DNA of 64,000 bases from positions 1,612,001 through 1,676,000 of the forward strand of contig NZ_CP045245.1 in the NCBI RefSeq assembly GCF_009720485.1, in the 5' to 3' direction. Each line of letters begins with the position of its first letter. Within the stretch, counting starts at the first letter, position 1. Below, one piece after another: positions 39,082 to 44,671 of this stretch. A program made the position numbers and the translations under genes. This DNA comes from Cellulomonas sp. JZ18 (GTDB lineage Bacteria; Actinomycetota; Actinomycetes; Actinomycetales; Cellulomonadaceae). The notes under the pieces were generated by a model. The model did not search any database. It was not told the origin of the DNA and saw only the letters and a list, made by a program, of their open reading frames with translations.

Positions 39082-40287
39082 TCAGTGGCCCGGCAGGGCC
39101 AGCATCTGGTCGAGCGCGACGCGTGCCCAGTGCGCGTCGTCGGCGTCGACGACGATGCGGTTCGGCACCCGACCCGCGACGAGCTCCTCGAGCGACCACA
39201 CCAGGTGCGGCAGGTCGATCCGGTTCATGGTGGAGCAGAAGCACACCGTCGAGTCGAGGTAGTGCACCGACAGCTCGGGGTGCGCCTGCGCGAGGCGGCG
39301 CACCAGGTTGAGCTCCGTGCCGATCGCCCACGACGAGCCGGGCGCGGCGGCGTCGAGGCCCTTGATGATGTACTCCGTCGAGCCCACCATGTCGGCGGCC
39401 GTGACGACCTCGTGCCGGCACTCCGGGTGGACCAGCACCGTGACGTCGGGCACCGCGGCCCGCACGTCCTCGACGTTGCGCGCCGAGAAGCGCCCGTGCA
39501 CCGAGCAGTGCCCCCGCCACAGGATCATGCGCGCGTCACGCAGCTGCTGCGCCGTCAGGCCGCCGCCCGGCTTGCGCGGGTCGTAGACGACGCAGTCGTC
39601 CAGCGAGAGCCCCAGCTGCAGGACGGCGGTGTTGCGTCCCAGGTGCTGGTCGGGCATGAACAGCACCTTGCCGCGGCCGGCGACGCCCCCGACCCGCTCG
39701 AACGCCCAGCGCAGGGCCACGTGCGCGTTCGACGACGTGCACACCGTCCCGCCGTGCCGACCCGTGAACGCCTTGATGGCGGCCGTCGAGTTCATGTACG
39801 TCACCGGCACCGTGTCGTCCGCGACACCGGCGTCGACCAGCACGTCCCACGCGTCCTCGACCTGGTCGATCGCGGCCATGTCGGCCATGGAGCAGCCCGC
39901 GGCGAGGTCCGGCAGGACGACCTGCTGGGAGTCGGCGGTGAGGATGTCGGCGGACTCGGCCATGAAGTGCACGCCGCAGAAGACGACGAACTCGGCGTCG
40001 GGACGCGCCGCCGCCTCCCGCGCGAGCTTGAACGAGTCACCCGTGACGTCCGCGAACGCGATGACCTCGTCGCGCTGGTAGTGGTGGCCGAGCACGAACG
40101 CCCGCTCGCCGAGCGCGGCACGCGCGACGCGGGCCCGCTCCACGAGGGTCGGGTCGCTCGGGTCCGGCAGCGCGCCCGCGCACTCGACGCCCCGCTCCGA
40201 GGCGAGGTCGGCGCCTCGTCCCAGCAGCAGCAGCGCGGACGGAGCAGGCTCGGCGAACGTCCCGGTCGTGGGCAGGGTGAGGCTCAC
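39082..40287 (-). CDS. nadA: Quinolinate synthase A
   Basis: NadA condenses iminoaspartate with dihydroxyacetone phosphate to quinolinate for NAD synthesis, using a [4Fe-4S] cluster. The 401-residue protein shows HHYQRDEVIAFADVTGDS, VVFCGVHFMAES (first cluster Cys), TYMNSTAAIKAFTG, VCTSSNA (second Cys), FMPDQHLGRNTA and a C-terminal STVCFCSTMNRIDLP with the third. GTG 40287 was chosen: GATCAT (40294-40299) lies 6 nt upstream, consistent with a leaderless start, and it matches the family N-terminus. nadB and nadC are not adjacent. Confidence 0.95.
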   Translation of the reverse strand: MSLTLPTTGTFAEPAPSALLLLGRGADLASERGVECAGALPDPSDPTLVERARVARAALGERAFVLGHHYQRDEVIAFADVTGDSFKLAREAAARPDAEFVVFCGVHFMAESADILTADSQQVVLPDLAAGCSMADMAAIDQVEDAWDVLVDAGVADDTVPVTYMNSTAAIKAFTGRHGGTVCTSSNAHVALRWAFERVGGVAGRGKVLFMPDQHLGRNTAVLQLGLSLDDCVVYDPRKPGGGLTAQQLRDARMILWRGHCSVHGRFSARNVEDVRAAVPDVTVLVHPECRHEVVTAADMVGSTEYIIKGLDAAAPGSSWAIGTELNLVRRLAQAHPELSVHYLDSTVCFCSTMNRIDLPHLVWSLEELVAGRVPNRIVVDADDAHWARVALDQMLALPGH

Positions 40288-40431
40288 GGCGCGATGATCC
40301 CACACGCGTCACGCCCGGGCGCAGGGCCGTCCGTCCCGTCCGGACGCGGGCGCTGCGCGGGCCTCGCCCGGGTCCTCGGCGCGTGTGCGTCGACGTGACC
40401 GGGCGGCCCCCGGCCGTGCCACCATCGCCCG

Positions 40432-41655
40432 GTGCGCGTGCTCCTCGCCCCCGACTGCTTCGGCACCGCCCTGACGGCGGCGCAGGCCGCGGACGCCCTC
40501 GCGGCCGGCTGGCGGGGCGGGGCCCCGCACGACGAGGTCACCACCTGCCCGATGGCCGACGGGGGTCCGGGCTTCGTCGCCACGCTGCGCACGAGCCTCG
40601 GGGGCGACGTCGACGCGGTCACGGTCACCGGTCCGCTCGGCGACCGCGTGCCGGCCGCGGTGCTCCGCCTCGGCACGACGGCGTACGTGGAGTCGGCCCA
40701 CGCGCTCGGGCTCGACCTGGTGCCGCCCGCGCGGCGCGACCCGACGCGCACGACGAGCGCCGGCGCGGGCGTCCTGCTCGCGGCCGCCCTCGCCGGCGGG
40801 GCGCGGCGGGTCGTCGTGGGCCTGGGCGGCTCGGCCACCAACGACGCCGGTGCCGGTCTGCTGGCCGAGCTGGCGGACACGCTGCTCGGGGAGGGGGCGG
40901 TCGGCACCGCGGGGGCCGTCCTGCGCCGCGGCGGGGGTGCGCTGCACGACGTGCGCGAGCAGGACCTGCGGTGGCTGCCCGCGCTGCGCGACGCCCTGCG
41001 GGACGTCGACCTGGTCGCCGCCGTCGACGTCGACGTCCCGCTGCTCGGTCTGCAGGGGGCGTCCGCCGGGTTCGCACCGCAGAAGGGGGCGACGCCCGAG
41101 CAGGCGCAGGACCTCGAACGGGCCCTCGGGGTCTTCGCGCACGCGGCGGCGGCAGCGCTCGGACCGGACCCGGTCCGCCGCGACCTGCTCGCACCGCCGG
41201 CGGCACGGCCTGGCGCACGGCCGGGCGCACGGTCGGGCGCCTCGCGCTGGACGGCTCTGCCGGGGGCGGGGGCCGCGGGCGGGGTGGGGTTCGCGCTCGC
41301 GCTGCTCGGCGGCCGCCTCGTCCCCGGCGCCTCCCTCGTCGCGGACGCGCTCGGGCTGCCGGACCGGATCGCCGCCCACGACCTGGTGGTCACCGGGGAG
41401 GGGCGCACGGACTGGCAGTCGCTGCACGGCAAGGTCGTGGCCGAGGTCGCCGCGCGGGCCCTCCCGCTCGCCGTGCCGACCGTGGTGGTCGCCGGCGAGG
41501 TGCTGGTCGGCCGGCGCGAGCTGTCCGCGGCGGGCGTCGCGGCGGCGTACGCGGTGGCCGACGGCGCCGAGCAGGTGGCGGCCGCGCTGGCCGACCCGGC
41601 CGGCACGCTGGCTGCCCGGGCCGCCCGGGTCGCCCGGACGTGGTCGCCGGCCTGA
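40432..41655 (+). CDS. Glycerate kinase
   Basis: The 407-residue protein matches the GlxK/GarK glycerate 2-kinase family: MRVLLAPDCFGTALTAAQAA, DGGPGFVATL, GLGGSATNDAGAGLL (nucleotide/glycerate loop), GAAGGVGFALALLGG and VTGEGRTDWQSLHGK. It phosphorylates glycerate for entry into lower glycolysis. The usual DGGEGT motif is DGGPGF here. An Ala/Arg/Pro insertion (PAARPGARPGARSGA) sits before the C-terminal domain. The GTG start follows CACCAT (40420-40425) by 6 nt; promoter assignment is tentative. Confidence 0.88.
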   Translation: MRVLLAPDCFGTALTAAQAADALAAGWRGGAPHDEVTTCPMADGGPGFVATLRTSLGGDVDAVTVTGPLGDRVPAAVLRLGTTAYVESAHALGLDLVPPARRDPTRTTSAGAGVLLAAALAGGARRVVVGLGGSATNDAGAGLLAELADTLLGEGAVGTAGAVLRRGGGALHDVREQDLRWLPALRDALRDVDLVAAVDVDVPLLGLQGASAGFAPQKGATPEQAQDLERALGVFAHAAAAALGPDPVRRDLLAPPAARPGARPGARSGASRWTALPGAGAAGGVGFALALLGGRLVPGASLVADALGLPDRIAAHDLVVTGEGRTDWQSLHGKVVAEVAARALPLAVPTVVVAGEVLVGRRELSAAGVAAAYAVADGAEQVAAALADPAGTLAARAARVARTWSPA

Positions 41656-41782
41656 CCGTCGGCGCGCTGCGACACAGGTCACCGCCGTGCGCGGTGCGGC
41701 GGGCGTACGCTGGGCGGGAACAACGGCCCGGTCGGCGGTGTTGCGACCGTCGAGGACCGTCTCTGGCTGAACCGGGAGTGAC

Positions 41783-42133
41783 ATGAGCGAGACCACGCAG
41801 ACCGCGACCCACGGCGTCCAACTCACGGACGTGGCGGCCGACAAGGTGCGCGCCCTGCTCGAGCAGGAGGGTCGTGACGACCTGCGCCTGCGCGTGGCGG
41901 TGCAGCCCGGCGGGTGCTCCGGCCTGATCTACCAGCTGTACTTCGACGAGCGCCTGCTCGACGGCGACGCGACGCGCGACTTCGACGGCGTCGAGGTCGT
42001 GGTCGACCGCATGAGCGTGCCGTACCTCGAGGGCGCCACGATCGACTTCGCGGACACGATCGAGAAGCAGGGCTTCACGATCGACAACCCGAACGCGGGC
42101 AGCTCCTGCGCCTGCGGTGGCTCGTTCGCCTGA
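41783..42133 (+). CDS. erpA: A-type iron-sulfur cluster insertion protein
   Basis: The 116-residue A-type carrier delivers Fe-S clusters to apo-proteins. It has the three conserved ligands C45 (QPGGCSGLIY), C109 and C111 (SSCACGGSFA). The GGGAG ribosome site precedes ATG 41783, and a -10 TACGCT at 41706-41711 suggests a leader of about 65 nt. The location near ctaC and a desulfurase-like gene is conserved in actinobacteria. Clients in this window include LipA, NadA and the Rieske protein QcrA. Confidence 0.95.
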   Translation: MSETTQTATHGVQLTDVAADKVRALLEQEGRDDLRLRVAVQPGGCSGLIYQLYFDERLLDGDATRDFDGVEVVVDRMSVPYLEGATIDFADTIEKQGFTIDNPNAGSSCACGGSFA

Positions 42134-42150
42134 GCCCCTGCGCCCTGCCC

Positions 42151-42187
42151 CACGGGCCCGCGACCGGACACCGGTCGCGGGCCCGTG
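42151..42187. terminator. 17-bp perfect hairpin between erpA and tusA-like genes
   Basis: Positions 42151-42167 pair perfectly with 42171-42187 around a 3-nt loop (ACA). It lies between convergent genes and should terminate both. Confidence 0.75.
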
Positions 42188-42214
42188 CGCGTGCGGGGCG
42201 TCCGCCGGCCGGCC

Positions 42215-42457
42215 TCAGCCGGTCAGGCGGACCGTGACGACGACGAGGTCGCCGGTGCCCTCGCACGTCACGAGCTCGTGACCGCGCATGCGCGCCCAGG
42301 CGGGCAGGTCGACGGCCGCGGCCGGGTCGGTGGCGGTCACGCGCAGCAGCGCGCCGGCGGGCAGCGTGCGCGCTGCGGCCGCGGCGCGCAGCACCGGCGC
42401 GGGGCAGCGGAGCCCCCGCGCGTCGACCTCGGCGGCGTCGCCGCCCGGCCCGCTCAC
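42215..42457 (-). CDS. TusA-like sulfurtransferase/sulfur carrier, 80 aa
   Basis: The 80-residue protein is a SirA/TusA-fold sulfur carrier with the conserved persulfide-forming Cys in VDARGLRCPAPVLRA (C18), followed by GALLRVTATDPAAAVDLPAW and a terminal strand DLVVVTVRL. TusA proteins accept sulfur from a cysteine desulfurase. Its GTG start overlaps the stop of the desulfurase-like gene by 4 bp (GTGA), so the two are coupled and probably interact. In some actinobacteria I recall the two as one fused protein. Like its partner, it contains no lysine. Confidence 0.85.
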   Translation of the reverse strand: MSGPGGDAAEVDARGLRCPAPVLRAAAAARTLPAGALLRVTATDPAAAVDLPAWARMRGHELVTCEGTGDLVVVTVRLTG

Positions 42458-43608
42458 AGCCCGACCGCGCCGGCGGCGGCCCGGACCTGCGCGACGACAC
42501 CGGGGAGCGCGTCGCAGAGGCGGTGCACGTCCTGCTCGCGCACGTCGACCGGCAGCGAGAGGCGCACGTTGCCGTGCGTGAGCGCACCCATCGCCGCCAG
42601 CACGTGGCTGGGCTCCAGCGCCCCCGACGTGCACGCCGATCCCGAGCCGACCCCCAGGCCGAGCCGGTCGAGCTGCGTCACGAGCGCCTCGCCGTCGACG
42701 TAGAGGCACGAGAACGTCGCGACGTGGGGGAGCCGCGCCTCGGGGTCGCCGACGACGTCGACGTCGGGCACCTCGGCGGCCACCCGCGCCCGCACGACGT
42801 CGACCAGCGCGCGCCGGTGGGCGTCCGCCCGCGCGCGGTCGGCGACCGCGTCCTGCAGCGCGACGGCGGCGGCGAGGGCGAGCGGGACGGGGACGCCGCC
42901 GGGCGACCAGCGGTCCTCGTCCTCCGGCCAGTCGGGGGAGCGACGCACACCGGTGCGCGTCACGAGGACGCCGAGGGGAGGTGCGCCCCAGTCGCCGGCG
43001 TCCGCCGCCAGCAGGTCCCACGCCGCCCCGACGTCGACGTGCCCGAGACTCGCACCGGCGTCGACGAGCAGGGGGACGCCCCGCCGGCGCAGCCCGTCGT
43101 GGACCGGCCCGACGGGCTGCAGCGTGCCGACCTCGCCGTTCGCGTGCTGCAGCGCGGCGAGGGCCGTGCCCGGCCCGACGGCCGCGTCGAACGCCTCCGG
43201 GTCGACCCGTCCCGCGCGGTCGACCGGGACCGTCGTCACGGTGCCCTCACCGCGCGCGGCCACGAACGCCGCGGCGGCGTGCACGGCGGCGCGCTCGACG
43301 GCGCCGACGACGACGTCCGCACCCTGCCGGCGCCGGCCCCGCGCGACCGCGCGGACGGCCCCGTGCAGCGCCGCCGTGTGCGTCCCGAAGAGGTCCACCT
43401 CCTCGGTGCGGGCGCCGACGACACCGGCGACGGCCTCCCGCGCGCCGTCGAGGAGCATGCGGGCACGGCGTGCCTCGGCGAAGAGCCGGCGCGGGTCGGC
43501 CCAGCCCTGGTCGAGAGCCTCGAGCAGGGCCGCTCGGGCGCGAGGACGCAGGGGGGCGTGCCCGGCGACGTCCAGGACGGCGCGGGCGGCGGGCGCGGAC
43601 GCGTTCAC
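42454..43608 (-). CDS. Cysteine desulfurase-like protein lacking the PLP lysine
   Basis: The 384-residue protein has the NifS/IscS-like aminotransferase class V fold: LDVAGHAPLRPRARAALLEA, FGTHTAALHGAV, QHANGEVGTLQPV, LLVDAGASLGHVDV and the catalytic-Cys loop GSGSACTSGALEPSHVL. The position of the PLP-binding Lys (SAHK in homologues I recall) reads DAGD before WGAPP, and no lysine occurs anywhere in the protein. It therefore cannot form the normal Schiff base, although the persulfide Cys is kept. GTG 43608 follows TAGCGT (43616-43621) by 7 nt. It is coupled to a TusA-like gene. Confidence 0.82.
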   Translation of the reverse strand: MNASAPAARAVLDVAGHAPLRPRARAALLEALDQGWADPRRLFAEARRARMLLDGAREAVAGVVGARTEEVDLFGTHTAALHGAVRAVARGRRRQGADVVVGAVERAAVHAAAAFVAARGEGTVTTVPVDRAGRVDPEAFDAAVGPGTALAALQHANGEVGTLQPVGPVHDGLRRRGVPLLVDAGASLGHVDVGAAWDLLAADAGDWGAPPLGVLVTRTGVRRSPDWPEDEDRWSPGGVPVPLALAAAVALQDAVADRARADAHRRALVDVVRARVAAEVPDVDVVGDPEARLPHVATFSCLYVDGEALVTQLDRLGLGVGSGSACTSGALEPSHVLAAMGALTHGNVRLSLPVDVREQDVHRLCDALPGVVAQVRAAAGAVGL

Positions 43609-43630
43609 GTCCGGCACGCTAGTGCCGGAC
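43609..43630 (-). promoter_or_regulatory. 9-bp perfect dyad over the -10 of the desulfurase-like gene
   Basis: GTCCGGCAC-GCTA-GTGCCGGAC (43609-43630) abuts the GTG start and contains the -10 hexamer TAGCGT (43616-43621, minus strand). A regulator bound here would occlude the promoter. The binding protein is unknown. Confidence 0.6.
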
Positions 43631-43798
43631 GCCCCCGGGGACGACGTGTGACGGTGCTGACACCGCGTCGCCAAAGGAGCGCCGCGGCACGTCACCCCGC
43701 GTGGGGCGCGCTAGGCTGCACGGGTCGAGGACGAAGGTCCCGCACGACCGCGCGCCGGTACGGGGCGTGGTCGGCAGGGACGCGAGTGGAAGGCCCCC

Positions 43799-44671
43799 GT
43801 GCACCCGGATTCCCCCCGCCGCGCCCGGCGCGTGACCGCGGCCCTGCTGGCCTCGGCCCTCGTGCTGGTGCTCAGCGGCTGCTCCGAGACGGTCCAGCGT
43901 GGCTGGCTCCCCGGCGACTCCGACCAGGAGGTCACCGACCAGACCGGTCGTGTCGTCCAGCTCTGGGTCGGCTCCTGGATCGCCGCGCTGATCGTCGGCA
44001 TCATCACCTGGGGCCTGATCCTCTGGTGCGTCGCCGTCTACCGGAAGCGCAAGGACGACGACACCCTGCCCGTGCAGCTGCGCTACCACGTGCCGCTCGA
44101 GGTCATGTACGTCCTGCTCCCGATCGTCATGATCGGCGTGCTCTTCTACTACACGAACCGCGACACGATGGCGATGCAGGACACGTCCGCCGAGCCGGAC
44201 GTGAACATCCAGGTCATCGGCAAGCAGTGGAGCTGGGACTTCAACTACCTCGACGACGACGTCTACGAGACCGGTCAGCACGCACGCGCCGTCGGCGAGG
44301 ACCCCGAGACCCTCGACCGTCAGGTCACGCTCTACCTGCCGGTCGACCAGCGCGTCGAGTTCATCGTCGAGTCGCGCGACGTCAACCACTCGTTCTGGAT
44401 CCCCGAGTTCCTCTACAAGATGGACATGATCCCGGGCGTCACGAACACGTTCCAGGTGACCCCGACACGTGAGGGCTTCTACCGCGGCAAGTGCGCGGAG
44501 CTCTGCGGTGAGGAGCACTCCTCGATGCTCTTCAACGTCGCGGTCGTCTCGCAGGAGGAGTACGACGCCCACATGGACGAGCTCCGCGAGAAGGGCCAGA
44601 CCGGTGCGCTGAGCCTCGAGTACAGCCGTCAGCAGAACCTCAACGAGGTCGCGGGGGAGGACGAGAACTGA
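43799..44671 (+). CDS. ctaC: Cytochrome c oxidase subunit II (CuA, lipoprotein)
   Basis: Subunit II of the aa3 oxidase receives electrons through its binuclear CuA centre. The 290-residue protein has a lipoprotein signal with lipobox LSGC (C28), two membrane helices (about residues 57-80 and 98-118), the Trp-rich [12 protein letters not shown] segment, [10 protein letters not shown] with a CuA His, and [12 protein letters not shown] with the two Cys, Glu, His and Met ligands. GGAAGG precedes the GTG; a TAGGCT -10 (43712-43717) suggests a leader of about 75 nt. It heads ctaC-ctaD-ctaF. Confidence 0.97.

Follow-up and report, generated by a model that had tools for sequence, protein, structure and literature searches.

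A widespread actinobacterial cysteine desulfurase-like protein without the catalytic lysine, predicted to handle sulfur or iron-sulfur clusters

Organization of the tusA/pseudo-desulfurase locus

The window, i.e. the whole 64,000-nucleotide stretch of Cellulomonas sp. JZ18 DNA analysed here, carries on its reverse strand a gene (42454..43608; GTG start at 43608 or 43617) encoding a protein of the IscS fold with 384 amino acids, none of which is a lysine, hereafter designated the pseudo-desulfurase. The GTG at 43617 gives 387 amino acids, the length found in the protein database. The stop codon of this gene and the start codon of the following one overlap in the four bases GTGA (42454..42457, reverse strand). 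The following gene (42215..42457, reverse strand) encodes an 80-amino-acid TusA-like protein, also devoid of lysine, which matches PF01206 (69.8 bits; cut-off 28.6) and possesses its CPxP cysteine, Cys18, in a GLRCPAP motif. On re-check, the coordinates, reading frame, motifs and four-base overlap given in the original prediction were all correct.

The convergent neighbour (41783..42133, forward strand) is, judged by its sequence, presumably erpA, encoding an A-type Fe-S carrier; a strong GC-rich hairpin (42130..42220, no strand assigned; −67.4 kcal/mol, z −5.06) located between erpA and tusA is likely their shared terminator. The divergent neighbour (43799..44671, forward strand) is presumably ctaC, for oxidase subunit II, and a further gene (39082..40305, reverse strand) is presumably nadA, for quinolinate synthase. 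Quinolinate synthase is an Fe-S enzyme.

Gene order was compared at the loci flanked by 4 kb on both sides, i.e. 60 with and 22 without the codon for the catalytic lysine (hereafter Lys+ and Lys−, respectively). The ctaC gene lies upstream in divergent orientation at all 60 Lys+ loci and at 21/22 Lys− loci; erpA is convergent downstream in 56/60 and 21/22; nadA is present in 49/60 and 14/22; and a glycerate kinase gene in 20/60 and 16/22. The erpA neighbour also occurs in 22 of the 25 TusA-less Lys− loci examined. The nadA - glycerate kinase - erpA - tusA/pseudo-desulfurase - ctaC block (window 39082-44671) is largely kept in both Lys+ and Lys− lineages, and from nadA to ctaC it appears to be a gene arrangement of long standing in actinobacteria. 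The predicted placement beside erpA and the aa3 oxidase genes is thus real and, judging from the ctaC counts, a very old synteny. An oxidase or copper maturation role, which rests on this synteny common to Lys+ orthologues, is possible.

Active-site residues and predicted structure

The pseudo-desulfurase matches Pfam Aminotran_5 (100.6 bits), and its best NCBIfam match is FeS_nifS (196.1 bits), under a curated cut-off (530.75) that is not discriminating, as a Lys-bearing MnmA-linked paralogue (391.7) and Lys+ orthologues (264-269 bits) also score below it. These matches bear out the class V aminotransferase/NifS fold that had been claimed, i.e. fold type I as in IscS. The DAGD motif aligns with SGHK(206) of Escherichia coli IscS, placing Asp206 (codon 42991..42993, reverse strand) in the column of the PLP-lysine; both this substitution and the lack of any lysine had been correctly predicted, and with no lysine at the normal site the claim that a normal PLP Schiff base cannot form is supported. 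Other residues of the IscS PLP site are replaced as well, His104, Gln183, Ser203 and His205 being Arg106, Ala186, Asp203 and Gly205 in the pseudo-desulfurase.

The persulfide cysteine is present at Cys326 (codon 42631..42633, reverse strand; IscS Cys328), in the GSGSACTSG loop already noticed in the original prediction. Also present are the equivalents of IscS Asp180 and Arg354, namely Asp183 and Arg349. In IscS, Asp180 pairs with PLP N1 and Arg354 with the substrate carboxylate; given their conservation, some residual ligand binding could persist. The structure model has a pLDDT of 92.8, falling below 50 in the Cys loop (326-331), as would be expected of a mobile class I loop.

Sequence error and composition as explanations of the lysine loss

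A protein search with the pseudo-desulfurase (E 1e-20) yielded 4140 matches, of which the 120 listed include the window's own protein (P0001). All 119 other listed nearest proteins, the named entries being Cellulomonas, have Asp at the site and the persulfide Cys, and 115 of them have no lysine whatever. The agreement on Asp rules out a sequence error, and a compensating lysine elsewhere is ruled out by the 115 lysine-free proteins and the lack of a common lysine column.

At the 1.31% lysine rate of five neighbour proteins, the chance of finding no lysine is 0.006 for 384 residues and 0.35 for the 80 residues of TusA. The TusA partners of Lys+ orthologues have no lysine in their matched stretch in 45 of 121 cases, so that the lysine-free TusA, which had been regarded as noteworthy, mainly reflects composition. 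The total absence of lysine from the pseudo-desulfurase is also partly a matter of high-GC composition, because Lys+ orthologues average only 2.6 lysines each. The real signal is the loss of the one catalytic lysine.

Composition is ruled out as the cause at the catalytic site by the Lys-rich proteins of the Nanopelagicaceae type (120 listed of 1761 matches to the L292 protein, a few of them named Candidatus Nanopelagicaceae). Despite their 5-14 lysines each, none of these 120 has a lysine at position 206, which is Ser in 98, Ala in 11, Thr in 9 and Phe in 2, so that the loss cannot be put down to base composition. The residue just before the site is a lysine in 45 of these proteins, but it is not conserved. 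The Cys and Arg354 equivalents are both kept in 120/120 listed proteins.

Distribution and conservation of the Lys− form

The family was defined by a profile score > 280, with identical matched stretches counted once, giving 243 rows from 242 records; L248-L263 were left out as outside the family, and one species may be counted twice, as a named record and as a numbered genome. The catalytic lysine is present in 126 and absent from 117 of these rows, its replacements being Asp, Ser, Ala, Thr, Gly, Gln, Met and Glu. Tabulating this position in homologues, as the original prediction had proposed, showed that the lysine is absent from 95/95 rows of the window's own order, whereas orthologues of other orders keep it in a normal site reading VEHS, DAAQS and SAHKWGG in the commonest form. 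The two ways in which the original prediction might have failed, a lysine at another position lost here by error or a lone degraded copy among Lys-bearing homologues, were tested and neither held.

Named Lys+ organisms include Streptomyces, Kitasatospora, Micromonospora, Nonomuraea, Actinomadura and Kribbella, and the named Lys− organisms are Cellulomonas, Sediminihabitans, Actinotalea, Terrabacter, Janibacter and Knoellia; the named loci are the best 80 of 544 confirmed, an uneven sample. Matches to the pseudo-desulfurase occur in 33/39 whole genomes at E 1e-20 and, at the level of the class, in 204/394 genomes at E 1e-45. In the window's own genus, 21 of 24 other genomes hold both a pseudo-desulfurase (67-78% identical) and a second desulfurase (35-39%). 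The gene seems to be missing from many families of the order, in the rough picture obtained by scoring the best four candidates per genome, and given this apparent absence it seems dispensable there.

The Cys328 column holds Cys in 126/126 Lys+ rows and in 116/116 of the Lys− rows that could be read (the remaining one is truncated), and the Arg354 equivalent is found in the same 126/126 and 116/116 rows. Expressed as the share of Lys− rows keeping the typical Lys+ residue, conservation is 100% for Cys328 and Arg354 and 98% for Asp180 (His in two Lys− rows, L270 and L279); the values are 49% for T76, 29% for H104, 8% for S203, 3% for Q183, 2% for H205 and 0% for K206. The replacement of His104 by Arg accompanies that of Lys206 by Asp in 62 of the 70 Asp rows, a covariation which suggests that an Arg104-Asp206 salt bridge may fill the emptied cofactor site. 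One genome also harbours a second, very divergent family member with a GCGCTC loop (L067; G182 C6).

By tree and synteny, the Lys+ desulfurase-TusA proteins of actinobacteria (Streptomyces, Micromonospora, Nonomuraea, etc.) are orthologues of the Lys− proteins, unlike which they keep Lys, His104, Ser203 and mostly Gln183. A literature search for experiments on these Lys+ proteins found none.

Selection and history of the lysine loss

Lys− family members are under purifying selection in the sampled pairs. Estimated by NG86 on close pairs only, dN/dS is 0.08-0.25 for Lys− pairs (12 listed of 19), similarly to the 0.10-0.25 of Lys+ pairs (12 listed of 18), and relaxed selection or decay was thus not seen.

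A quick ML tree built on 101 rows placed 46 of 47 Lys− rows together in a single clade (SH-aLRT 98); one lysine loss fell outside it, and the fewest changes were two. The fewest changes were six in a tree of 99 rows sampling more lineages, where the own-order clade comprised 37 rows (SH-aLRT 93), and eight in a tree with added members of one family. The survey of that one family (25 loci minus the unreadable L307 and L308, leaving 23 rows) showed the lysine absent from 4 of 23 rows and the Cys kept in 23/23. The lysine is replaced by Gln in one of the four members of one genus and by Arg in one of the three members of a second, in both cases beside Lys-bearing sisters, and by Ala in the two remaining, single-genus rows. 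The formal tests speak less clearly against a single origin: one clade of all Lys− rows was rejected only narrowly (p-AU 0.043), and the clade of own-order rows plus L228, with a p-AU of 0.355, was not rejected. Because of the variation within genera and the count of fewest changes in the one family, the lysine was likely lost repeatedly, an uncertain number of times.

The TusA partner

A same-strand TusA is adjacent or fused in 121/126 Lys+ rows (27 fused) and in 84 of the 115 Lys− rows with room for it (4 fused), and its Cys motif is kept in 120/121 and 83/84 cases, respectively, the matches without the motif being those of L220 (Lys+) and L067 (Lys−). No adjacent TusA was found in the other 31/115 Lys− rows, 13 of which are among the 31 rows of the window's own genus, and the Cys and Arg354 equivalents are kept in all 31 rows without it. 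The two proteins had been presented as a coupled pair; the 13 own-genus rows do not bear out an obligatory unit. Adjacent TusA is not the sole acceptor, because the 31 rows without it keep the Cys protein. Own-genus loci with a pseudo-desulfurase and no adjacent TusA include L010-L013, L022, L023 and L027-L030.

The window's genome gave only one PF01206 match, the 80-amino-acid neighbour. The PF01206 search covered 18 genomes, 12 of them own-genus genomes with no neighbouring TusA; 11 of these 12 have only weak matches elsewhere (27-34 bits), and the twelfth (G001) has a further match at 66 bits. In another family, two genomes with no neighbouring TusA (G032 and G350) likewise have a match elsewhere, at 66-67 bits. 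Lys− fusions to TusA with both cysteines kept occur at L062, L180, L285 and L288. The model of the L062 fusion (mean pLDDT 75.3, linker < 50) is uninformative on the docking of TusA at the Cys loop.

Other desulfurases of the genome

The window's genome encodes a SufS (552.5 bits vs a curated cut-off of 475.1) in a SUF region that also holds SufU, SufC and SufD matches. A second desulfurase, linked to MnmA (L082; G000:C1, about 2871650-2872840), reads in two frames; its gene is open in the relative L085, and broken in the window's assembly. With a completeness rating of 96.66% for the single-contig assembly, assembly errors are possible.

Discussion

The best solved-structure match of the pseudo-desulfurase (phmmer) is Archaeoglobus fulgidus IscS (PDB 4eb5/4eb7/4hvk; about 30% identical), whose SSNDIYG motif aligns with DAGDWG so that Asp occupies the same column, the Lys to Asp change being common to both proteins; in keeping with this alignment, the title of PDB 4r5f refers to a D199K mutant of A. 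fulgidus IscS. The original prediction was right about a Lys-less desulfurase-like protein, but overlooked this precedent. Similarly to the pseudo-desulfurase, A. fulgidus IscS has altered Gln183 and His205 equivalents; it keeps those of His104 and Ser203, where the pseudo-desulfurase has Arg106 and Asp203. It is archaeal and complexed with IscU, whereas the pseudo-desulfurase is encoded next to TusA and has numerous orthologues that retain the lysine. A. fulgidus IscS is reported to have no desulfurase activity (PMC7585200) and, when complexed with IscU D35A, to ligate the cluster through Cys321; a figure legend indicates that its crystal contains PLP (PMC9769115). Methanosarcina acetivorans IscS1, from an archaeal iscSU cluster, is also reported as an IscS homologue without the essential lysine (PMC7585200), and is likened here by description, not by sequence. 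Our search of the literature, which few subscription papers entered, found no description of the Lys-less actinobacterial group, nor is it mentioned in the accessible parts of PMC12192291 and of the review PMC8300815.

From the conserved Cys loop and the altered PLP site, we consider it fairly probable that the protein is a conserved pseudo-desulfurase, non-desulfurating, which acts through Cys326 with a persulfide or Fe-S hand-over. It would form no internal aldimine at the normal site, probably binds no PLP and, with most of the PLP pocket gone, would extract no sulfur from cysteine. Because the Cys loop is strictly retained, we propose a persulfide-acceptor or thiolate-ligand role: Cys326 would most likely take a persulfide, or hold an Fe-S intermediate, that a genuine desulfurase of the cell has made, the candidate donors being SufS and the desulfurase beside mnmA. 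This load would be handed to TusA where it is present, or else to an Fe-S carrier encoded nearby, such as ErpA, which the synteny makes the natural acceptor candidate where there is no TusA. E. coli IscS is an active PLP enzyme. The sulfur relay that it forms with TusA (PDB 3lvj) differs from the one proposed here, in that E. coli IscS has Lys206 and the pseudo-desulfurase does not.

By analogy with A. fulgidus IscS, which is inactive and ligates a cluster through Cys321 (PMC7585200, PMC9769115), the cysteine might instead serve mainly as a ligand for a nascent [2Fe-2S] on ErpA/SufU, and not in a persulfide relay. The conserved erpA neighbour, found also in most of the TusA-less Lys− loci examined, speaks for this role, but the usual neighbour is a TusA with its Cys kept and not an IscU, and erosion of the PLP pocket has gone further than in A. 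fulgidus IscS, so that we regard it as rather unlikely. Desulfurases of the IscS class are dimers, and the nearly universal ctaC synteny in the loci examined could likewise point to a non-catalytic partner without Cys chemistry, i.e. a heterodimer or mask of an active desulfurase, or an oxidase assembly chaperone. Such a partner need not retain the Cys and the SGS-x-C loop so strictly, however, and since the synteny is equally strong in Lys+ orthologues it predates the lysine loss; we hold this explanation to be improbable.

The lysine of desulfurases also serves as acid-base in the known mechanism, and most other PLP-site residues are gone along with it, which makes a slow desulfurase with non-covalent PLP very improbable in spite of the Asp180 and Arg354 equivalents in 98-100% of Lys− rows. 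The PLP in the A. fulgidus IscS crystal (PMC9769115, figure legend) also speaks for such an enzyme. We give equally little credence to a decaying relic heading for loss: the lysine was probably lost repeatedly and the gene seems absent from many families of the order, but dN/dS in the sampled pairs is as low as in Lys+ orthologues, the frames are open with an invariant Cys over many families, and the gene is retained in small genomes of the Nanopelagicaceae type. The pseudo-desulfurase is probably, then, a conserved non-enzymatic protein of sulfur or iron-sulfur handling. As regards its origin, we are slightly inclined to view it as an ancient actinobacterial Cys-loop protein for which PLP chemistry was never essential or was dropped several times, leaving a PLP-independent hand-over from Cellulomonas to the Nanopelagicaceae type.

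Two archaeal IscS proteins had already been reported without the lysine; here a change of this kind has become fixed in numerous families of bacteria, some of them related to abundant freshwater groups, while the Cys is strictly retained. As read from the sequences compared, the Lys− protein is real, widespread and functionally constrained, a variant of the pseudo-IscS kind whose function is predicted. These data suggest that a large group of proteins is misnamed when automatically labelled cysteine desulfurase. The Lys− family uncouples what IscS-like proteins do with a persulfide or as a ligand from their PLP chemistry, in bacteria that are cultured and where this separation can be tested.
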